Notes under the pieces: generated by a model
The model's database searches: none
Seen by the model: only the letters and a program-made list of their open reading frames with translations
Told to the model about the DNA's origin: nothing
Program-made: the position numbers and the translations under genes
In this document: piece by piece, positions 5,427 to 22,222 of the stretch
Numbering within the stretch: the first letter of the stretch is position 1
Layout: the number at the start of each line of letters is the position of its first letter
Virus record (IMG/VR): IMGVR_UViG_3300042465_005251
Coordinates: 1-24,534 of that record
Source: a virus
Direction: 5' to 3' (one strand)
Length of the DNA stretch: 24,534 bases

Positions 5427-5438
5427 ACCCCAAAAATA

Positions 5439-5470
5439 ACAAAAGCCCCCACCAAAGTAGGGGCTTTGTG
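5439..5470 (-). terminator. Rho-independent-type terminator after the major capsid gene
   Basis: Reading the minus strand, AAAGCCCC, a short spacer containing TACTTTGGTG, and GGGGCTTT form an 8-bp stem followed by TTTTGTTATTTTT. It lies between the capsid stop codon (5502) and the start at 5426. It probably attenuates transcription so that capsid mRNA exceeds that of the downstream connector genes. It also argues against the longer upstream start of the 334-aa gene. Confidence 0.7.
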
Positions 5471-5501
5471 CCACTTTATCTAATTTGAACTAACAAACAA
5501 A

Positions 5502-6584
5502 CTAGACAGCAGTTGCGGTATAACGTAGTAAACCGTTTGAGCCTGCCAAATCGTCATACGTGCCATAGGCATCGGTAGGAACAACATAAACACCCGCATT
5601 TACAGACAATCTCAACAAGAAAGTATCAGTACAAGTATCAAACTCAAATTTGGCATCATACATCAAATTTGGTATCATTGGATCGGGGATAGTGAACAAA
5701 GTAGCCCCTCCGAAAGTACCTGCATACTTGCCTACGTATTTATTCCAAGACATGAACTGAGCTGAACCTTCGCCCATAACGATAAGTTCATTAGTACCAA
5801 CAATAGTATTAACGGCTTTATCAACGAAGAATTTGTAATCCTGTGAAATGCTAGAGAAGTCAACACCGCTATTTTGCAAGCCGTATTTATTCGTTGCTAG
5901 GTCGAATTTCTCAAAATTACCTTTACCGATAATAATAGGAGTACCGTATAATTCATTTTCTGTGAAGTCAGAAAGTAAAGTTTGGAAACCTGCCAATACT
6001 GGCGCGCCTGCAACTATACCCGTAGCACCGTTTGAAATTACAGGAATAGAAGTAGTTGTGTTTACTCCTGTTGTTGCATTAACGCCGAAAGAAGTAGAAA
6101 GCTTAGTAACAACATCATTGTTGATAGACGTTCTCATTGCGTTCATGGCAGACAAGATACGTTTACTAACTTCTTTCAAGTTGTAAGGTACAGGCAATCC
6201 AGCCACAGCAGAAGAAGCTTCTTCGCAGAATACACGTATCTCGTCCATTCCCAAAGCAATATCATATTGCTTGTAAATGTCAAGTAATGTAGTGTCCTCC
6301 ACATAAGTTTGTGGGTCACCAGCTACGCAGTCGGCAGTATCTTTAATCAAGTCAGCCGTTACACGTGGTAAATATTTTACTCTTACCTCTTTAATAGTGC
6401 CTGTTTTGTTACCACCATAAACTGAAAGGATTTCAGCCGATTGGTTTTCAGGTTGAGAAAGTGCAAGCGTTGCGCCTACTGGTGTTTGTTTAGTTTGTGG
6501 GTCATTTAGACCTGCAACCATTTCCAATCCTGTTAGAATAGCTGGACATACGCCCGCTACATTGAAATCGATTCCTTGTGCCAT
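5502..6584 (-). CDS. major capsid protein (HK97-fold type)
   Basis: A 360-aa protein beginning MAQGIDFNVAGVCPAIL. It directly follows a coiled-coil scaffold-like gene by 2 nt and is the only gene with its own downstream terminator, as expected for the most abundant virion protein. Features seen are Ala/Gly/Thr-rich composition, an N-terminal helical region, and a C-terminal half with alternating strands (GTPIIIGKGNFEKFD; VGTNELIVMGEGSAQFMSW) and a MYDAKFEFDTCTDTFLLRLS segment, as in HK97-fold capsid proteins of Bacteroidota phages. Assignment is from size, context and composition; no single diagnostic motif exists for this family. Confidence 0.75.
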   Translation of the reverse strand: MAQGIDFNVAGVCPAILTGLEMVAGLNDPQTKQTPVGATLALSQPENQSAEILSVYGGNKTGTIKEVRVKYLPRVTADLIKDTADCVAGDPQTYVEDTTLLDIYKQYDIALGMDEIRVFCEEASSAVAGLPVPYNLKEVSKRILSAMNAMRTSINNDVVTKLSTSFGVNATTGVNTTTSIPVISNGATGIVAGAPVLAGFQTLLSDFTENELYGTPIIIGKGNFEKFDLATNKYGLQNSGVDFSSISQDYKFFVDKAVNTIVGTNELIVMGEGSAQFMSWNKYVGKYAGTFGGATLFTIPDPMIPNLMYDAKFEFDTCTDTFLLRLSVNAGVYVVPTDAYGTYDDLAGSNGLLRYTATAV

Positions 6585-6586
6585 TG

Positions 6587-7435
6587 TTAAATTCCGTTAG
6601 ATTGTTTAGCCTTCGCCATGTTTTGCGCAAAGGTATTGTTTACTGCCCTTGTTGGCTGCGCTGGTACTTGTTGAGTTACAATAGGTGCAGCAGCAGCGAC
6701 AACGTGTAATAGGTTTTTTTCGGCTAAAGCTTTTTGAATGCCTGTTTTTACGTCCAAATCGGTAACATCTAAACTTTCGTCCGATAGTCTTTTAAGTTTC
6801 AATTCACCATTTTGTAAAACAATTTTCGCATCCTTAGATTTGAAGAAATCATTAACGGCTTGTTTTGCAAGCGTTCCACGATATTCTGAAGGTATGCTTT
6901 CGCTTATTTTATGTTGGTTGATAAAACTTGACATATTCCAATCAATCTCTTTGTTGATTGATTGATTAACTAGGTCAATGTTAGCCGTTTTGAAAGATTC
7001 AACTTGGTTCGATAATTCTGAAATCTTAGATTTATATTCTAAATCCAAAGCTTTCAATTTGTCATCATTCCCACTTGCCTTTGTTTTTGCTTCGATTAGC
7101 TTATTAGCTTCATCCGTTAATTTTGATATGCGTTTGAAAGTTTTAGGTTCTGAAGCCTTCAGCTCGTTAATCTGTTCATCGCTTAGTCCAAGTCCCTTGA
7201 AAGCCAAAGTCAGTTCTTTGTCTGTCGCATCGGCAAACTCACTGAAGAATTTTGCTTTGATGTCGGGATTGTTCTTTGCTTCGTTGGCAGTTAGTAAGCT
7301 ACTTTCAAAAGTTTTTGCTAGTTCCTCATCTATTTCAATAGTTGCGGTTAAGCTTATAATCTGTTTTAGTGATTCATTTGCTGAATCTGTTCCCACTTTC
7401 GTGGCTAATGTTGTAATGAGTTCTCCTAATAACAT
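6587..7435 (-). CDS. capsid scaffolding-like protein
   Basis: A 282-aa protein, strongly charged and mostly alpha-helical. A likely coiled coil covers residues about 100-160 (heptad-like KLTDEANKLIEAKTKA... KALDLEYKSKISELSNQVESFK). An Ala/Pro/Gln-rich linker near residue 245 (VVAAAAPIVTQQVPAQP) precedes a basic C-terminal tail ending KAKQSNGI; capsid-binding basic tails are typical of phage scaffolds. It lies immediately before the capsid gene, the usual place for a scaffold, and no separate protease is seen. It is the first minus-strand gene after the plus-strand cassette, so the 7436-7511 gap probably holds a promoter for the head operon, though no clear consensus was found there. Confidence 0.65.
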   Translation of the reverse strand: MLLGELITTLATKVGTDSANESLKQIISLTATIEIDEELAKTFESSLLTANEAKNNPDIKAKFFSEFADATDKELTLAFKGLGLSDEQINELKASEPKTFKRISKLTDEANKLIEAKTKASGNDDKLKALDLEYKSKISELSNQVESFKTANIDLVNQSINKEIDWNMSSFINQHKISESIPSEYRGTLAKQAVNDFFKSKDAKIVLQNGELKLKRLSDESLDVTDLDVKTGIQKALAEKNLLHVVAAAAPIVTQQVPAQPTRAVNNTFAQNMAKAKQSNGI

Positions 7436-7511
7436 AAGGACTGTTTTTTAGTTAGTTAATTTTTCGAAATTTATTCACCTTTTAAAGATTAATTTATTAA
7501 CTTGTGCCACA

Positions 7512-7727
7512 ATGGAAAATAAAGATAAACATCGAATAGTTACACGTGTAAGCGAAAGTACACTTCTGTGGGTAGATTCTAAGGCTAGGGGAATGTCGTT
7601 CCAGAGGTCTAAGATTTTAAAAAAAATGATTAACGAGCATAAAATGTGTGAATCACTTACGGGGAAATCCGTATGGCAAATAATTAAAGATAATATTGAA
7701 CTTAGAAAGAAATTAAAAAATGAGTAA
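7512..7727 (+). CDS. ribbon-helix-helix-like small DNA-binding protein
   Basis: A 71-aa basic protein opening the plus-strand cassette. Residues about 7-40 (HRIVTRVSESTLLWVDSKA then SFQRSKILKKMI) fit the pattern of an Arc/CopG/MetJ-type fold: an N-terminal beta-strand with alternating polar residues, followed by two helices. That pattern is family knowledge applied by eye. It could repress its own divergent promoter region, which also lies upstream of the scaffold gene. It overlaps the next gene by 8 nt. A helical C-terminus (IIKDNIELRKKLKNE) could serve oligomerisation. Confidence 0.55.
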   Translation: MENKDKHRIVTRVSESTLLWVDSKARGMSFQRSKILKKMINEHKMCESLTGKSVWQIIKDNIELRKKLKNE

Positions 7728-8241
7728 ACATCCATGGAATAGCGAACATGCAGTAAGTTCACTTATTGCAGAATTGATTAAAATTAAGTCTTGTACTAAT
7801 GTTTTGGAAATTGGCGTTTTTCAAGGCCAAACAGGATTGGCCATGATTGGTGCATTACCTAAAGATGGCACTTATACGGCTTTAGACATTACAGAGGACA
7901 ACTACACCTCCGAGTTTAAAAAAGCTTTAAAGAAGCATACTTCTTTAGTAGGAAATAGTTTGGAGTTATTGCATTCAATTCCAAATAGGAGCGTAGACTT
8001 AATATTTATTGATAGCGTTCACGAATATGCGCACCTAAGCAAAGAATTCAAAATTTGTGAAAATATCATAAAGCAAAATGGATTGATAGTATTGCATGAT
8101 TCTATATTGTTCGTTGGCGTTGCTCAATTTGTTAAGGAGTTGAAAAGCAATAAAGGCTTTGAAATTTTAACACTTGAAACGCCTGAAGAGGGCGACCGTG
8201 TACCTAGTGGGTTAACTATCATTAAATGTTTATATCCGTAA
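7720..8241 (+). CDS. class I SAM-dependent methyltransferase (Methyltransf_24-like)
   Basis: A 173-aa protein with motif I VLEIGVFQGQTG at about residues 27-38 (SAM-binding glycine loop), a motif II acidic residue in TALDITEDN at about 59-62, and DLIFIDSVHEYAHLSKE at about 89-105. The D-x-x-H pattern after the DLIFID strand is typical of the Methyltransf_24/TylF-like O-methyltransferases, some of which bind metal. The likely reaction is SAM-dependent O-methylation of a small molecule or sugar; the substrate is unknown. Being next to an FkbM-type methyltransferase and near a glycosyltransferase suggests surface glycan or structural-protein decoration. It overlaps both neighbours, consistent with one transcript. 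Confidence 0.75.
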   Translation: MSKHPWNSEHAVSSLIAELIKIKSCTNVLEIGVFQGQTGLAMIGALPKDGTYTALDITEDNYTSEFKKALKKHTSLVGNSLELLHSIPNRSVDLIFIDSVHEYAHLSKEFKICENIIKQNGLIVLHDSILFVGVAQFVKELKSNKGFEILTLETPEEGDRVPSGLTIIKCLYP

Positions 8242-8408
8242 TCATGGCATTCACTATATTATTAATATTCGTTTACTTCGTACCTTCTATGATTGCGTAC
8301 GAAAAGCCTCAGTTCAATCAAATATTGGCATTAAATATATTAACAGGTTGGACTGGTATCGGTTGGCTAATTGGTTTATTGTGGGCTTTAAATAATCCTA
8401 AAGTATGA
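8226..8408 (+). CDS. superinfection immunity membrane protein (Imm_superinfect family)
   Basis: A 60-aa inner-membrane protein with two hydrophobic segments (residues about 4-22 and 34-54). The second contains LNILTGWTGIGWLIGLLWAL, close to the family signature seen in T4 Imm-type superinfection immunity proteins (LN---GWTGIGW---L-WA). In T4, Imm blocks DNA entry of later-arriving related phages; that function is inferred here. Two starts are possible: 8226, overlapping the methyltransferase by 16 nt, or the ATG at 8244 giving MAFTILLIF. Its 3' end overlaps the next start (ATGA). It is a typical cargo gene that would protect an infected or lysogenic cell. Confidence 0.8.
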   Translation: MFISVIMAFTILLIFVYFVPSMIAYEKPQFNQILALNILTGWTGIGWLIGLLWALNNPKV

Positions 8409-9040
8409 GAATACTCACGCTAAAAAATGGCGAACAAATATACGCACATGATAAAGGCGAATACGTAAGCGACATAATCGAGCAAACAGGATGGTATTAT
8501 GAGCCACAAACAATTGAATACATTAAAAATCTTGGTTTAAAGAATTGTATAATATTGGACATAGGCGCTAATATTGGCAACCATAGCCACGCAATAAAAT
8601 ATTTTTCAAATGATTGCACTATCTATTCATTTGAGCCTTTAGAGGCGAATTATAACGTTTTAAAAAATAATGCAAAAGGTACGGTTAATAGATTTGTTAC
8701 TGACAATTTAGGGAATGAAAACTTTATTACTTCGTTTTGGGGCAATGATAATTTAGGTTACACGGGATTAAGTGAAAACGGGCAATCATGTCAAAATATT
8801 ATTATTGATAATATGTTTTTCCCTAGAAAAGTCGGATTGATTAAAATTGATGTTGAGGGTCATGAGTTGCAAGCGCTAAATGGTGCATTTGAAACAATAG
8901 GGGAAAATTTGCCCGTTATTATTGCTGAACATCATACCAATGAAGAACACTTGCAAGTATTGGATTACTTAAAGCAATTTGGATATAATCTTGAAAAAAT
9001 TATTAAAGAGGATAATCTAAACTATGTTTATACGGTTTAA
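8405..9040 (+). CDS. FkbM-family methyltransferase
   Basis: A 211-aa SAM-dependent methyltransferase. Motif I is IILDIGANIGNHS at about residues 49-61; motif II is IYSFEPLEANYNVLKNN at about 73-89; the FkbM signature KIDVEGHELQAL lies at about 148-159; IIAEHH follows at about 178-183. These are the diagnostic motifs of the FkbM (Methyltransf_21) family, which O-methylates sugars, polysaccharides or polyketides. It starts with a 4-nt overlap to the immunity gene, so the two are probably translated together. A plausible role is modifying host surface glycan or phage glycosylated protein to alter receptor recognition; the substrate cannot be read from sequence. Confidence 0.85.
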   Translation: MRILTLKNGEQIYAHDKGEYVSDIIEQTGWYYEPQTIEYIKNLGLKNCIILDIGANIGNHSHAIKYFSNDCTIYSFEPLEANYNVLKNNAKGTVNRFVTDNLGNENFITSFWGNDNLGYTGLSENGQSCQNIIIDNMFFPRKVGLIKIDVEGHELQALNGAFETIGENLPVIIAEHHTNEEHLQVLDYLKQFGYNLEKIIKEDNLNYVYTV

Positions 9041-9054
9041 ATAAAATTAAATAA

Positions 9055-9201
9055 ATGAGCGATAAAGAAAAAATTGAAATGTATGAATCATTAGTTACTA
9101 ATTTAAACAATGAAATTGAAGAATTGAAAGATTCAAATGAAATATTAATCCATGAAAATAAGTTCTTAAAAGATACAATATTAAAACTAATTAAACCTTA
9201 A
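9055..9201 (+). CDS. small coiled-coil protein, unknown function
   Basis: A 48-aa frame beginning MSDKEKIEMYESLVTNLN and ending LKLIKP, 14 nt after the FkbM gene. Regularly spaced Leu, Ile and Met residues with many Glu, Lys and Asn give a heptad-like pattern along almost the full length (LVTNLNNEIEELKDSNEILI), so it probably forms a short coiled coil. It fills most of the gap between the FkbM gene and the next membrane-protein gene, on the same strand. No function is recognised. Confidence 0.55.
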   Translation: MSDKEKIEMYESLVTNLNNEIEELKDSNEILIHENKFLKDTILKLIKP

Positions 9202-9217
9202 TAATTAATCAAAAAGT

Positions 9218-9427
9218 ATGATATACCTAAAATTAACATCTGTTATTGTTGCTTTTTTTTTAGGAAGATATGCAACATATTACTTTAATGTAAAAGATGA
9301 TGACAGTTTGCTGTTTAAGTTATCAATGATCTTGATTGGTGCCATAATGGCTTGGTTACTAACATTAGTAATGTGTACTATAGCTATTGGCTGTTATTAC
9401 TTATTGATTCACTATATTATAGTATAA
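9218..9427 (+). CDS. small membrane protein, unknown function
   Basis: A 69-aa protein with a hydrophobic N-terminal helix (residues about 5-17, SVIVAFFLGRYATYYF), a short charged loop (NVKDDDSLLFK) and a long hydrophobic C-terminal stretch (residues about 35-69), so two or three membrane spans. It is the last gene of the plus-strand cassette and its 3' end overlaps the convergent minor head gene by 11 nt. Holin, immunity or uncharacterised membrane roles are all possible. No lysin gene is next to it, which weakens a holin reading. Confidence 0.5.
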   Translation: MIYLKLTSVIVAFFLGRYATYYFNVKDDDSLLFKLSMILIGAIMAWLLTLVMCTIAIGCYYLLIHYIIV

Positions 9428-10316
9428 TTCTATCTAAATCTTTCTTAGGCACCATCTTTTCACTTACAGGTAGTATTTGGTGATTACATTGCCAACCTCC
9501 CCTGTAAGTGAATATATTACTTGAATTAGTACCCGCAATCATTCCCCCTCCTTTATGCGTTTTAGTTTTACAAGAAAACCAAAGCGAAGGCGTTTCTCCC
9601 CACTTTTGCACCTCGGATAAATGGTAATAATTACCCGTTCTTTCAATGCAAAAGCAACGTGATGAACTTCTTAACCCTCCCTGATACAAGAACCATACTA
9701 AGCCTAAATCGTTACTAACTGTTTGAATATAATTAGCTGAATATTGGTTTAGCGAATCCGTAGCAATCTGTTTAACGTGCTTATTTAAGTACCCTAGCGT
9801 TTCAGGGTCGCCTACTATCTTAAGTTTTAAATCGGCAATGAATTCTTTAATGTTTGCGCCACTGGTTACCGACTTACTAAGATAGTCAGTAATAGGTGAA
9901 ATTATATCCGCAGAAACTCCCGACCCTAGTAATGATTCACTTGTGACGCTTACCGAGTTGGTTAATATTGCTTTGAATAATTCTCCTTTACCGTTAAAAT
10001 CGCTTACAATGGTACTAAAATAGCTATCTAGCAATGTTTTAGTATCATCGAATGAATTAAGATAAGAATTAACATCACTTTTATAATCATCGTTTAAAAT
10101 GATGTTATTAAGTCTATTCTTTACTTTTTGTATTTGCTTTAAATTTGAAACGCTTGTTTTTATGTTGCCGTTTACGACCTCTAATTTATTAAGCTCAATA
10201 GTCAGTTCGTCAAAAATAGCCTTTTCAATTGACGGTATAGATTCCTCTAAACTATCAATTGAATATTGCATACTTGCAAATATTTTAGCTATTAATTTGT
10301 CTTGATTAGATGGCAT
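9417..10316 (-). CDS. phage minor head / head morphogenesis protein
   Basis: A 299-aa protein overlapping the portal stop by 11 nt, the usual position of the SPP1 gp7 / Mu gpF type minor head protein. The N-terminal 110 residues are helical and charged. The C-terminal part carries SRCFCIERTGNYYHLSEVQKWG and a final YRGGWQCNHQILPVSE, which resembles the conserved C-terminal Cys/His block of these proteins, where a PxHxxCRC-like segment is common; here it is divergent (GGWQCNHQ). It is probably a low-copy head protein associated with the portal and ejected DNA. Its 3' end meets the plus-strand cassette. Confidence 0.65.
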   Translation of the reverse strand: MPSNQDKLIAKIFASMQYSIDSLEESIPSIEKAIFDELTIELNKLEVVNGNIKTSVSNLKQIQKVKNRLNNIILNDDYKSDVNSYLNSFDDTKTLLDSYFSTIVSDFNGKGELFKAILTNSVSVTSESLLGSGVSADIISPITDYLSKSVTSGANIKEFIADLKLKIVGDPETLGYLNKHVKQIATDSLNQYSANYIQTVSNDLGLVWFLYQGGLRSSSRCFCIERTGNYYHLSEVQKWGETPSLWFSCKTKTHKGGGMIAGTNSSNIFTYRGGWQCNHQILPVSEKMVPKKDLDRIIL

Positions 10317-12063
10317 TTAATGGGTTAGTTGCTTGTGTTGGTAGTTTATTAGCGTTGATATACTCATTTGCGTACGTGTTCATTAGCGCTTTTTTCTCGC
10401 TTAGTTCCCAAGTTGCAAAGTCTTTATTTTCGCTAAACGCACGTTCTATAAACGTGTTAATAAATGAGTGTATCGTTAATGTTTCAGCATTAAATGGTGA
10501 TATGGCATTCATGGTTAAAATATCGTCAGTAGTCATTCCACGAAGTGCATCTAACAAGATTATGTTTTGTTGATACGCCATTTCTTTTGGGCTGCCTTCA
10601 TACTTTTTACTTATGTAATCCATTTCCATAGATTCAATAATTGAACTACTGATACCGCTTTGCGTTGCTTTTCCTATTTGCTCTTCAATTACCGAAGTAG
10701 TGATAATATCAAAGTCGTTAGGTATATTGATACTTGGCAATTGCTCACTTAATAACTGTTTATTGTTTTCTAAGAGTACCGAATATCTTAAATCATTTAT
10801 AGCGTTTGTAATAAATGGCAATAATCGACCAAAAATATCATTGCTAATATTTGCAAGAAATAAGTGCGTTTGGTCGTAATCGTAAGACTTTGAAACACCG
10901 CTTTGATCCGTTGGACTTTCTGCTAAGAATTCCATGTTTACCGCTCCTAGTCCTTTTTTAATCAATCTATCAATGTCAGCACTAAGGAATTCAACGGGCT
11001 TTAAATCCTTTTCAATATACTTAACAGGTGCCCATGCCGGGATAGAGTTTTCCTCACCATTCATTGCGGGTCTTACCTTTGTAACGCCAAAAGGAGAACC
11101 ACTAGAGAACCCTGAACCACCGCAGGAATTACATGAGCTTGTGACATTCTTATTGAACATATTAACCCTTGACACGTTACCCGAACCGTTGCACGTAGTA
11201 CACTCGTTTTGAGTGAATTCTACACGTTCAGGGTATAGGTGCTGCTTAATAGTTACGTTCTTATCAATGTTCTCCAAAAGCGCTTGGTCGAAATCAGGAA
11301 TAATGCCAGCTACCCAAGATTCATAATAAATGTCATCGTCCTCGCTTGTTAATACTCCCCCGTTTTCGATAGCAGGAATATACCCTAGGTTATGAGCATA
11401 TAATAAGGTAGTTACGTATTTTTCTTTGACAGAATCACGCTCTAATAAGTAATAATTTGTTTCATCAATTACAAACCATTCCTTTTCCTCAATCTCAATA
11501 ATAAGTAACCCGTCATCAAAGTATTTTACTTTAGTTATTGAAAAAGAATACGGTATAGGCTTAATGAATTCATTTACAGGCATATTTTGGTACTCCTCTA
11601 AATAGTCATCGTCTAAAACATATTGAGGCGCAACCACTACAATACCATTTGAATCAGTTAAATAGTTCTTTAGTTGGAAATTAAAGAACCATTGAATAAG
11701 GCTGTTATGTTTCGGGAACTTTTCAAATAAATAGCTATAAAGCGTTTCTGATTCCTTAATTTTAGGGCTATTGTTTTCACTAGCTTTTATGATTAAATCC
11801 CTAGCTCTTTGTATTTTAGCTATTGAGTTTTGCACCTTCTTAAATGGTGCCTTAGTGATAGCTCTGTAATTGTCTTTTTTATACTTAGTAGCCCACTCAG
11901 GCTCACTTGGTTGGTACGTAACCATCATATCTAAAGCATCATCTACTTTGCCATCGGAATGTCTTTTAAGGCTTCTGTATTCCTTAACCTTAATGTCCTT
12001 TAATTCCTTATCGTGGTCTTTTTCGATGTACTTTTCAATAAATGCTTTTGTTCCAACTTCCAT
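10306..12063 (-). CDS. portal protein with an inserted DnaJ-like zinc-finger motif
   Basis: A 585-aa protein of portal size, followed by a minor head gene. The N-terminal part includes RAITKAPFKKVQNSIAKIQ, and the region after residue 350 (DIDRLIKKGLGAVNMEFLAE then LFLANISNDIFGRLLPFITNAIND) resembles the wing/stem helices of phage portals. Unusually, residues 288-295 (CTTCNGSG) and 311-318 (CNSCGGSG) form two CxxCxGxG motifs 15 residues apart, the zinc-binding pattern of the DnaJ Cys-rich domain, flanked by glycine- and serine-rich sequence. Four cysteines would bind one zinc ion. The portal is the dodecameric DNA channel at the capsid vertex, and terminase docks on it during packaging. Confidence 0.75.
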   Translation of the reverse strand: MEVGTKAFIEKYIEKDHDKELKDIKVKEYRSLKRHSDGKVDDALDMMVTYQPSEPEWATKYKKDNYRAITKAPFKKVQNSIAKIQRARDLIIKASENNSPKIKESETLYSYLFEKFPKHNSLIQWFFNFQLKNYLTDSNGIVVVAPQYVLDDDYLEEYQNMPVNEFIKPIPYSFSITKVKYFDDGLLIIEIEEKEWFVIDETNYYLLERDSVKEKYVTTLLYAHNLGYIPAIENGGVLTSEDDDIYYESWVAGIIPDFDQALLENIDKNVTIKQHLYPERVEFTQNECTTCNGSGNVSRVNMFNKNVTSSCNSCGGSGFSSGSPFGVTKVRPAMNGEENSIPAWAPVKYIEKDLKPVEFLSADIDRLIKKGLGAVNMEFLAESPTDQSGVSKSYDYDQTHLFLANISNDIFGRLLPFITNAINDLRYSVLLENNKQLLSEQLPSINIPNDFDIITTSVIEEQIGKATQSGISSSIIESMEMDYISKKYEGSPKEMAYQQNIILLDALRGMTTDDILTMNAISPFNAETLTIHSFINTFIERAFSENKDFATWELSEKKALMNTYANEYINANKLPTQATNPLNAI

Positions 12064-12067
12064 TTAA

Positions 12068-12988
12068 TTAATATTTATTGCGTTCTTTCAAATAGTCTTT
12101 TTTGTCAATCCATAGAAACGGATTCTTTACATTTTGATGTTGTGCGTAATTCCATTTAACATGATCATTATAAAGGTCTTTAAGTCCTTTGTTCATTACG
12201 TGGCCAGCCATTGAAATGAAGTAATAGTTATTTTCAATGTAACTTCTTTCGATAGGTTTTACCCCTCTTTTTATGCCATTCTCAATGGCTTCGCTCATAG
12301 GGTAGTAAAAAATATTTTTATATGGATTATCTACCTTGAAATTTAGGTTCAATAGACTTAAGCTAAATGCTAGTTCATCGGGCATACTATCCGCCCAATC
12401 TCTGAATTGAAAGTCTCGTGTAATGAATAACTCCTTAGCACGTGCGAAAATAGCCTCGGATTCTTTGGACTTCTTAAAATAAAGAAATGAGGATTGCAAA
12501 TGGTAGTAGTAGGCATCTTTTTTTAATTTGAAATATTTTCGTAAATCCCGTACAGTTTCTCCCTCCTTAAACCAAAAGTTTGAATTATCGCTATCAACTG
12601 GATAATGAGCAGCTTCATGGTATAAGGTAAATCCAAAATTAACGCCCTTATATGTATTAAATAAGTCACTTACTTTCTTATTCTTAATCCAAATTGAATC
12701 ACTATCAATATACACTGTTTCATCAAATGGGCTTAGTTCGTATATCATCGTTTTGGCCAATGGTATTTCGACTTTGCCGTTAATGGTGTAAGCTGATTTA
12801 TCAAGTTCGATAAAATGACTGAAATATTGCTTTTCAAAGTAATTGAATTTGTCTTTTACTCCCTCATTGCAAACTAAAGCAATTTGAGTATCAGGATTAG
12901 AAACCCTGATACTCATTGCAAGATTTAAAGCCATTCGTCTATAATTATCATGACCTAGAGCCACTATAATAACGCCTTTATTTTCCAT
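12068..12988 (-). CDS. GT-A type glycosyltransferase (GT8-like)
   Basis: A 306-aa protein. The N-terminal VIIVALGHDNYRRMALNLA and NPDTQIALVCNEG segments form a nucleotide-sugar-binding Rossmann-like half, and ETVYIDSDSIW at residues 90-100 carries the DxD motif (D95, D97) that binds the metal and nucleotide diphosphate in GT-A enzymes. This resembles glycosyltransferase family 8 and related proteins. It lies 4 nt before the portal gene and 25 nt after a tube-like gene, in the same orientation, so it is co-transcribed with virion genes. It might glycosylate a virion protein or a host surface molecule. Donor and acceptor are unknown. Confidence 0.7.
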   Translation of the reverse strand: MENKGVIIVALGHDNYRRMALNLAMSIRVSNPDTQIALVCNEGVKDKFNYFEKQYFSHFIELDKSAYTINGKVEIPLAKTMIYELSPFDETVYIDSDSIWIKNKKVSDLFNTYKGVNFGFTLYHEAAHYPVDSDNSNFWFKEGETVRDLRKYFKLKKDAYYYHLQSSFLYFKKSKESEAIFARAKELFITRDFQFRDWADSMPDELAFSLSLLNLNFKVDNPYKNIFYYPMSEAIENGIKRGVKPIERSYIENNYYFISMAGHVMNKGLKDLYNDHVKWNYAQHQNVKNPFLWIDKKDYLKERNKY

Positions 12989-15534: not shown

Positions 15535-17777
15535 TATTCTACGTATTCATCAACAACATAAGGACATTCGACATAAATCAAGTCGCAACTTTCTTCGTTG
15601 CCAAACATTCGAATCAAGTCAAAATTTGCCATTCCTTGTACAGGGGTAAAAGTAATCATTTTCACATATCCCCTATGTTCAATTGTGCCACCTTTACCAA
15701 TTCCATAATACCCTGTTTTATTCGCTAATAGATTATTGAATTGAGCTGAACTCATCGGATAATCAAATTTTATGCTTATAGGCTCGAATATTGGCGAATT
15801 GTTAGTATTGTTGACATCGTCCCACGCTAAGTCTTGGTTTTCAGAAAGCAGTTCATTATTATACCTATCATTTACCGACCCATTCAATGCACTTTGAAAT
15901 AAATAGTTATTTTTACCATTCGTAAATGTTGCCTTTTTACCTGCTATCTTGGCATAAGGCGCACTAATTACTTGATTCCAATTAAGTAACATTCTGCTAG
16001 GTGTACACCTTAGATTGTACCCCGTTTCAGGGCTTAAAATATTGTTAGTTTGTGAAAAGTTTTCGTTTTTTTCGGCTAGGTTTAATTCTGTTGCTGTGCC
16101 TAGTTCGTTTTCAGTTCTTTTCGTGCATATTACAAAATTATCATCATCGAATTTCCATGAGGCTGTGCTAGTGTCGAAGAACTGCACACGTCTTGTAAAC
16201 TCAATGGCGTAATGGTCAGCAATGTAACGGCATACATTAACGAAATCTTTTTTAACCGTGGTTATTGGTAGGTTATAATTGTGCATAGTAGCGAAGCCGT
16301 CCAATGTATTGTTTTTGTCCGTGCCTTCCTCTGTACCTTCCTTTTCAAATCCTATCTTAGCGGTGTTGTATATCTTGTTTAAGTCTACATTTACGGACAG
16401 TTGTTTAACGTTTAAAATATCGCCTAGATTAGTATCTGAATAGAAATACTTCACAGGTTCAACCCTTATAATCTCGTTACCTGTTTCATCGTCCTCAATA
16501 CCTAAACCTAGACAATGGATAGTACTTAATGCGCTGTACATTTCATTGAATGTCGATAGGATAGGCTTATCAAACGTCCTAATATTAAAGCCGTTTGTAA
16601 TGGCCATGAAACTACCTAGCCCGTTTGAGCCATAACCTAAATCTTTACGGCCTAGAAAATTGCTTTTAAAGGCAATTTCTTTGTCAAGTACATTTTGTGC
16701 TGTTCTTTCAAAGCATTCGTGAACCATGTATGTTTTGGCGGTACTCGCTGCGGTGGTTGTTTCAACTTTAAATTCAACATCTTGCGTTTGTGAACTGTGA
16801 ACCCAATTTGCAAATGTCGAACCCGTTCCCCCTAGAGTCCATTCAAAACTAACCCTATAAAAAAAAGAAACATAGTCGTTCGCCGCCAATGTCATTGTAA
16901 GTTCCCCCTCAGCCTCCCAATCTTGTGAGTAGGTACTACTTACTACTGGTGATTCTGAAACAATTACGGGCGTTGTAATGTCTGCGAATACGCTACCATT
17001 TTTGAAACAACATAAAACGATTGACATATAAAACGGCCTAGTGTCTACCGTGAAATTCGTATTCGATTTGATATTGTATTTTACTTTGTATTCGCCTGCT
17101 GTCTTAGTTTTGAATTGCGATATGTCAACCCACCATAGAGGGTTTGACAATACATTTCTAGTAATGAAAAACAAATCGCTTTCTACCTCGCTATCTAAAT
17201 CATCGCTTTTCTCTAATAGCCACAATGGCATGGCTATATTAATATTGTCAACTAAAGCATGATCTATACTTTCGCTTAATTCGATAGCATCTTCAAACAC
17301 GCTTGTAAGTACTATCGCTTTACTGTGCATATCCATATAATTAGGATATAGAGGTGCTAATGCTACATCTGTAAGGGTAGTTACACCAGAAAAGTTTACC
17401 TGCTTATCCCCGTTGTTCTTAATCAACATACTGCTATTGTCCTGCTCGATATTTACCAAGCAAGAACAATAAACATTAAACTTATCTTGAAATCCTGATA
17501 GGTTTATACGACCTGTGTAAAGCGTTTCGTAATCATAGTTCTCGTTACATCTTTGCTCAATCTTAAGCTTTAGAATGTACTCAATTCCATAAGTATAAAA
17601 CGCATTTGCAATAATAGTATAGCCACTATTGACAAACTCCAAGTCATCGGTATAGCTAACAAATAACCCGTGCATTTTCTCATCACGGGCTACTGTTATT
17701 TTACATTTATCCCACCCTATCGGCTCATCAATAACCGTTTGAACTTCGCCATCTATTATCGTGAATCTATACTCCAT
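15534..17777 (-). CDS. tail tip / baseplate-like protein
   Basis: A 747-aa protein overlapping the tape measure stop by 11 nt, in the position where siphophages encode distal tail and tail-tip proteins. The N-terminal region (EPIGWDKCKITVARDEKMHGLFVSYTDDLEF at residues 18-48) resembles a conserved start of Bacteroidota phage tail-tip proteins. It is beta-rich through residue 350 and has a central part with FNEMYSALSTIHCLGLGIED. It is cysteine-rich in places, without transmembrane segments. It is probably the structural platform that closes the tail and carries the receptor-binding proteins encoded next. Confidence 0.6.
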   Translation of the reverse strand: MEYRFTIIDGEVQTVIDEPIGWDKCKITVARDEKMHGLFVSYTDDLEFVNSGYTIIANAFYTYGIEYILKLKIEQRCNENYDYETLYTGRINLSGFQDKFNVYCSCLVNIEQDNSSMLIKNNGDKQVNFSGVTTLTDVALAPLYPNYMDMHSKAIVLTSVFEDAIELSESIDHALVDNINIAMPLWLLEKSDDLDSEVESDLFFITRNVLSNPLWWVDISQFKTKTAGEYKVKYNIKSNTNFTVDTRPFYMSIVLCCFKNGSVFADITTPVIVSESPVVSSTYSQDWEAEGELTMTLAANDYVSFFYRVSFEWTLGGTGSTFANWVHSSQTQDVEFKVETTTAASTAKTYMVHECFERTAQNVLDKEIAFKSNFLGRKDLGYGSNGLGSFMAITNGFNIRTFDKPILSTFNEMYSALSTIHCLGLGIEDDETGNEIIRVEPVKYFYSDTNLGDILNVKQLSVNVDLNKIYNTAKIGFEKEGTEEGTDKNNTLDGFATMHNYNLPITTVKKDFVNVCRYIADHYAIEFTRRVQFFDTSTASWKFDDDNFVICTKRTENELGTATELNLAEKNENFSQTNNILSPETGYNLRCTPSRMLLNWNQVISAPYAKIAGKKATFTNGKNNYLFQSALNGSVNDRYNNELLSENQDLAWDDVNNTNNSPIFEPISIKFDYPMSSAQFNNLLANKTGYYGIGKGGTIEHRGYVKMITFTPVQGMANFDLIRMFGNEESCDLIYVECPYVVDEYVE

Positions 17778-22173: not shown

Positions 22174-22222
22174 ATTCAAAAGTAAGCTAAAAAAATAGAT
22201 ATTGCTTTCTTTTGTGCCACCT

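Follow-up and report, generated by a model that had tools for sequence, protein, structure and literature searches.

The window analysed here, a 24.5-kb virus record, carries its late operon on the minus strand, and the sole tightly packed set of plus-strand reading frames within the head module lies at positions 7512-9427. This cassette consists of c1 (7512-7727), c2 or MT24 (7720-8241), c3 (8226-8408), c4 (8405-9040), c5 (9055-9201) and c6 (9218-9427), which successively overlap by 8, 16 and 4 nt and are then separated by gaps of 14 and 16 nt. The coordinates bear out the first-pass annotation, which had described six packed or overlapping genes running against the genes of the head module. 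The cassette is placed between a gene in the minor head position (9417-10316, minus strand) and a gene in the scaffold position (6587-7435, minus strand). The stop of c6 is convergent with that of the minor head gene, with an overlap of 11 nt, and the divergent region between the cassette and the scaffold gene is 76 nt long. Both neighbours, as well as the gene in the major capsid protein position (5502-6584, minus strand), are named by position and size, and family searches of the three proteins in Pfam and PHROG gave no significant match. The portal gene (10306-12063, minus strand) matches PHROG 7376 (E 5.4e-21), and the late operon also contains a GT-A-like glycosyltransferase gene (12068-12988, minus strand), which separates the portal gene from the late genes upstream of it. 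Residues 285-318 of the portal protein, approximately, form a stretch resembling a DnaJ-type CxxCxGxG zinc finger (PF00684, E 2e-4), which is kept in L144. In L003, L006 and L007, at about 11755-11990, some 230 nt that are missing from the other close relatives lie between the portal and minor head matches; the portal reading frame of G006 is longer (662 aa), so that in this genome the stretch extends the C-terminus of the portal and is not an additional gene.

Two of the cassette proteins are SAM methyltransferases, as had been annotated, and both match families of the O-methyltransferase type. MT24 (173 aa, class I) is recognized by the Methyltransf_24 / Methyltransf_3 profiles PF13578 (E 4.9e-14) and PF01596 (E 5e-14), with scores of 53.5 and 52.5 bits; its PDB matches are O-methyltransferases (E 1e-11), the nearest solved relatives being small-molecule enzymes, and FID98, H101 and H126-D127 are invariant in an alignment of nine sequences. 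By profile and by these acidic and His motifs MT24 is assigned to the Mg-dependent O-methyltransferases, the use of metal being putative. A DNA methyltransferase was rejected as the main assignment, since the PHROG and NCBIfam matches are weak or partial, the [DNS]PP[YF] motif is missing, and the PDB relatives act on small molecules. There is also a weak match to the PADLOC model mads_2 (E 2.7e-8), which plausibly arises through the common methyltransferase fold. The product of c4 (211 aa) belongs to the FkbM family, with PF05050 (E 1.8e-16, 61.2 bits) and TIGR01444 (E 1.2e-17, 64.7 bits) above cut-off and a PDB match to 2py6 (E 2.8e-7); in the alignment its SAM motifs are intact (LDIGANIGN, EP and the K-D-EG residues). 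The usual substrates of FkbM and Methyltransf_24-type enzymes are sugars or small molecules.

The remaining four proteins are small. The 60-aa membrane protein encoded by c3 belongs to the Imm_superinfect family PF14373 (E 9.3e-13, 48.3 bits against a gathering cut-off of 27.9), matches PHROG 1039, 'immunity to superinfection' (E 3e-10), and keeps the motif GWTxIGW across eight aligned sequences, and tblastn of 50,697 phage records gave no match to it at E<=1. The family assignment of the proposed superinfection immunity protein thus stands, whereas the exclusion role follows from the family name, and membership of PF14373 is not proof of exclusion. Searches of Pfam, PHROG and NCBIfam with c1, c5 and c6 found no significant family; c5 (48 aa, a predicted coiled coil) and c6 (69 aa, a predicted membrane protein) are described from the reading-frame call. 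For c1 (71 aa) helices are predicted at 15-24, 30-50 and 54-70 in a low-confidence model (pLDDT 67) that has no Foldseek match; its best ribbon-helix-helix match, antitoxin Rv0298, is not significant (E 1.3), and the Pfam profiles of that fold match none of nine c1 members. Accordingly, c1 is at most weakly ribbon-helix-helix-like; the earlier label 'DNA-binding-like' found no significant family match in Pfam or fold searches, and nothing in the analysis supports the role of the cassette's own repressor that had been proposed for it.

IMG/VR was scanned for relatives with the portal, the capsid protein and MT24, and profile searches then added L144 and L174; the close set has a portal identity of 69-88%. 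The junction between the minor head and scaffold genes can be read in L002-L008, L013 and L144, while L009 and L010 end within the cassette. In 9/9 of these IMG/VR relatives of the cassette lineage with a readable junction, an opposite-strand cassette occupies the same site. This includes L144, in which the capsid (about 41%), portal and scaffold proteins are only about 40% identical to those of the window, yet the cassette keeps its position. L174, whose portal is 37% identical and whose gene order is unchanged, has an empty site: 69 nt separate the end of the minor head gene at 10837 from the start of the scaffold gene at 10907. The scaffold-position gene has 38-92% identity in cassette-carrying relatives and about 29% in L174; for the minor head-position gene the values are 45-78% and about 31%. 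The empty site of L174 indicates that the cassette was inserted between conserved phage genes.

With the window included, MT24 occurs in 10/10 loci, c1 and Imm each in 9/10 and FkbM in 7/10, the rest being variable; c1 is missing from L144, Imm from L004, and FkbM from L003, L008 and L144. In all eight relatives that possess it, c1 is the first gene. The c5 protein is 83% identical in L013, where its gene is duplicated around c6, and only a fragment of it is present in L005; c6 is 49% identical in L006 and 37% in L013. The genes do not form the one fixed unit that the first reading had implied, but a c1 and MT24 core accompanied by others that vary among the ten loci. Outside the group the only close MT24 relatives from the profile search are L097 and L141 (43%), and no other convincing relative of c1 was found among viral contigs. 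At 97 other loci there was no c1 profile match and an Imm match in L144 only, and the annotated phages contained no match to the portal, to Imm or at the DNA level.

The contents of the site have been exchanged between phages independently of the neighbouring genes. L004 and L005 are 98% identical at the nucleotide level in the minor head gene and 99% in the scaffold gene; within the cassette, MT24 falls to 82% (dS 1.44) and c1 to 89%, the FkbM gene has a mosaic structure, and Imm, which is absent from L004, and other reading frames are found in one of the two only. L007 and L144 present the opposite contrast: identity is about 40% for capsid, scaffold, minor head and portal, yet MT24 reaches 94% in amino acids and 88% in nucleotides. 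In FkbM the N-terminal part is conserved and the central block exists in three allele types (window/L004/L005, L002/L006/L013 and L007/L009); the L005 protein is chimeric, the N-terminus of one type being joined to the centre of another. It is from these two contrasts and from the chimeric FkbM that horizontal exchange is deduced. Together, the content swap between L004 and L005 and the empty site of L174 demonstrate insertion and exchange, and the claim of accessory cargo splitting the head module is thereby upheld. L005 repeats 26 nt from the 3' end of the minor head gene 514 nt inside the cassette, and the repeat-flanked stretch is consistent with an insertion scar.

The c1 protein is variable in its N-terminal half (11-18 of 40 positions identical between the window and close relatives) and conserved in its C-terminal half (21-22 of 28). 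MT24 is under strong purifying selection: amino acid identity in the close group is 91-95%, with dN/dS of about 0.05-0.07. Between the window and L002-L006 its dN is 0.04-0.08 and its dS 0.6-1.4, values comparable with those of the capsid gene; saturated dS values were left uninterpreted. The low dN relative to dS, similar to that of the capsid, points to a maintained enzyme. This selection and the recurrence at the same site in nine relatives argue that the cassette reading frames are not due to chance.

Two genomes of the group, G001 (44.8 kb) and G006 (44.3 kb), appear near complete, their ends overlapping by about 1.1-1.2 kb. The overlap in G001, about 1.2 kb, contains differences, which suggests that the genome is circular or redundant and that more than one strain went into its assembly. 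The larger proteins of the two genomes include DnaB, ERF, thymidylate synthases, a VapE/BT4734-like primase, DNA methylases and a lysis-type peptidase; no integrase was found among them, small reading frames having been partly scanned. The phages look virulent. The hosts are probably Bacteroidota, judging from the TAnnTTTG promoters, the absence of Shine-Dalgarno sites and the BT4734-like domain. A portal scan of genome_contigs gave no relative, and an MT24 scan gave distant methyltransferases only (28% identity or less).

In flavobacteria TAnnTTTG serves as the -7 box for sigma-A, and a described variant, TAnnTTGY, precedes genes for LPS and gliding (PMC9723704). Alignment of the upstream regions places a putative cassette -7 box of the TAnnTTGY type, TAACTTGT, at 7498-7505 (plus strand), which is TAnnTTTG in L006, L007 and L008. 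On the opposite strand the late-promoter element GTGGCACAA (7502-7510) of the scaffold and capsid promoter overlaps the 5' end of the cassette and is followed 28 nt later by a putative late -7 box, TAAATTTC (7466-7473), which reads TATATTTG in L006. The arrangement GTRGCACAA-N27/28-TAnnTTTG, or near matches to it, recurs upstream of late sub-operons in the window, where the element lies at 22220, 13615, 7510 and 5474 (all minus strand), and in the relatives; the element is also found in L002-L009, G001, G004, G006 and G010, almost always in one orientation. Shuffles of the window average 0.38 motif sites, and 0.0 with a -7 box; the window itself contains five, every one on the late strand, and three of these have such a box. 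The site at 15691 lies within a gene. The element is a candidate activator site for late promoters. At 5438-5474 (minus strand) of the window, and at the same place in relatives, the promoter region of the gene that follows the capsid gene holds a hairpin (AAGCCCC...GGGGCTTTT), a terminator-like stem positioned between the GTGGCACAA element and the -7 box.

In most relatives the reverse complement of the element overlaps a plus-strand TAnnTTGY or TAnnTTTG box just 5' of c1, and plus-strand -7-like boxes, which are short motifs, are present in most of those aligned. L004 and L005 have TAAATTGG here and a changed element. Two other roles for the motif were considered. TTGTGCYAC as a promoter or operator specific to the cassette is contradicted by its recurrence, in one orientation, at other sites of the late operon, and it is better described as a late-strand element. 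Autorepression by c1 through matching operators is not supported: L004 and L005, which share one c1 subtype, have a changed element here, yet the other late sites of L005 are normal. A scan of 7300-9700 found no terminator-like site on the plus strand. As a hypothesis, late activation might exclude transcription of the cassette: the factor that binds GTRGCACAA and turns on the late genes would cover the cassette -7 box and shut the cassette off, so that its surface and immunity programme would run only before virion assembly. Such a divergent switch is improbable on present evidence; if it did exist, phages that lack an integrase would possess in the cassette a swappable 'exclusion module' under regulation, active in the pre-late phase.

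These phages, a lineage with genomes of about 43-44 kb and no detected integrase, carry a moron-like cargo site at this junction. What the cargo does is a more tentative matter, and the leading possibility, judged from the families of its proteins, is that it changes the surface of the infected cell and excludes superinfecting phages. On this view the cassette, a transcription unit of accessory genes placed in reverse between the minor head and scaffold genes, would have its own promoter and be expressed either ahead of the late genes or together with them; the two methyltransferases, MT24 and FkbM, would methylate sugars of the envelope glycans, and the Imm-like membrane protein would hinder genome entry of further phages. 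The infected cell could thereby become a poor target for competitors, and the exchange of MT24 and FkbM alleles might track changing hosts or rivals. This explanation is favoured because in two unrelated phage contexts genes resembling MT24 have glycosyltransferase-like genes as neighbours, because envelope O-glycans of Bacteroidota are methylated, and because the Imm-like protein suggests a block at the membrane level. In L097 the MT24-like gene adjoins a glycosyltransferase-like gene, and in L016, a 120-kb phage contig, an MT24-like gene, several glycosyltransferase-like genes and FkbM stand in a row at 5550-9268, likely a glycan-modification cluster. It counts against the envelope explanation that a cell soon to be lysed would gain little by slow remodelling of its glycans. 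The surface-modifying and superinfection role given to the cassette in the first-pass annotation is therefore retained in part: the O-methyltransferase and T4 Imm-named families are confirmed, whereas the function is read from family names and a role directed at the virion still competes with it.

That competing role assumes that the product of 12068-12988 decorates capsid or tail proteins and that MT24 and FkbM O-methylate this glycan, which would vary the surface chemistry of the virion, the small membrane proteins being passengers. The location within the head module, the constraint on MT24, almost as strong as that on the capsid protein, and the clustering of MT24-like, FkbM and glycosyltransferase-like genes in L016 would all fit, and the GT-A-like gene is kept in all relatives, L144 and L174 included. 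L174, however, has the glycosyltransferase without the cassette, which argues against an obligatory linkage, and the cassette lies on the opposite strand with apparently its own transcription. Moreover, the glycosyltransferase call is based on a DxD motif (YIDSDSIW in an alignment of ten) and a weak partial fold match: the N-terminal part of a low-confidence model (pLDDT 52) resembles glycogenin at E 2e-3, and the fold search gave no match at E<=1e-3. We consider virion modification unlikely. About as likely is a permissive, non-essential junction that collects unrelated accessory genes, each selected separately and with no common function. The variable, modular content with MT24 as the sole constant gene agrees with this, and so do the gene-scale duplication in L013 and the repeat-flanked stretch in L005, whereas MT24 in 10/10 loci, c1 and Imm in 9/10 and the strong purifying selection suggest a maintained core; the explanation is rather unlikely. 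It is very unlikely that the cassette serves counter-defence or signalling, with MT24 methylating a small molecule or protein of the host to block its defence and c1 as regulator, given that no defence-system or inhibitor homologue accompanies it and that the nearest solved relatives of MT24 are small-molecule O-methyltransferases; the mads_2 match and the rapidly varying N-terminal half of c1 are the features that would speak for it.

Change of the envelope together with exclusion, the preferred explanation, has several partial precedents. T4 Imm confers superinfection immunity and is the namesake of PF14373 (PMC6832632). Like it, c3 is a small membrane protein, matching PF14373 and PHROG 1039; unlike it, c3 is linked to methyltransferases, has no tblastn similarity at E<=1 in the phage collection, and its exclusion activity is putative. 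In Tannerella forsythia envelope O-glycans are methylated by the cluster-encoded methyltransferases MtfJOY (PMC6120980). The cassette likewise encodes several SAM methyltransferases, and those of MtfJOY act on Bacteroidota envelope glycans, although they are chromosomal and embedded in glycosyltransferase clusters, and the likeness is one of description. Closest in concept are Bacteroidetes phages without integrases, for which the available part of the report describes a reverse-strand bS21 gene within the terminase, portal, protease and capsid region, FkbM among the highly transcribed genes, with late transcription, and a proposed remodelling of the surface against superinfection (PMC9723584). 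The combination of genes as one unit had been put forward as not recognized from earlier descriptions; the concept is not new, as a reverse-strand gene in the structural module, a late FkbM and surface remodelling against superinfection are already contained in that part of the report, and the absence of an integrase is shared as well. The bS21 system differs in its gene, which encodes ribosomal protein S21, and in the larger size of its phages (up to 331 kb), and the same part of the report describes no methyltransferase and Imm cassette at that site.

The cassette is most readily compared with phage morons and lysogenic conversion, of which the serotype-converting gtr genes are an example. 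The superinfection-exclusion lipoprotein gene ltp is another (PMC3952083). Like morons, the cassette genes are inserted between conserved phage genes, are horizontally exchanged, are not required for the virion and are predicted to alter the infected cell. Unlike morons, the cassette is multi-gene, modular and on the opposite strand, no terminator of its own was found, and in the absence of an integrase there is no evident prophage state. To the known morons the cassette adds a new case in which the series from empty through occupied to swapped sites is unusually clear. It provides a well-bounded natural series for a cargo site in virulent-looking phages, in which the control of superinfection has been less studied than in prophages. 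The alleles of MT24 and FkbM and the Imm-like variants at one locus make pairwise comparison of their effects on host surface or virion possible, and the shared late-promoter element offers a way into the regulation of late genes in an uncultured group of Bacteroidota phages.
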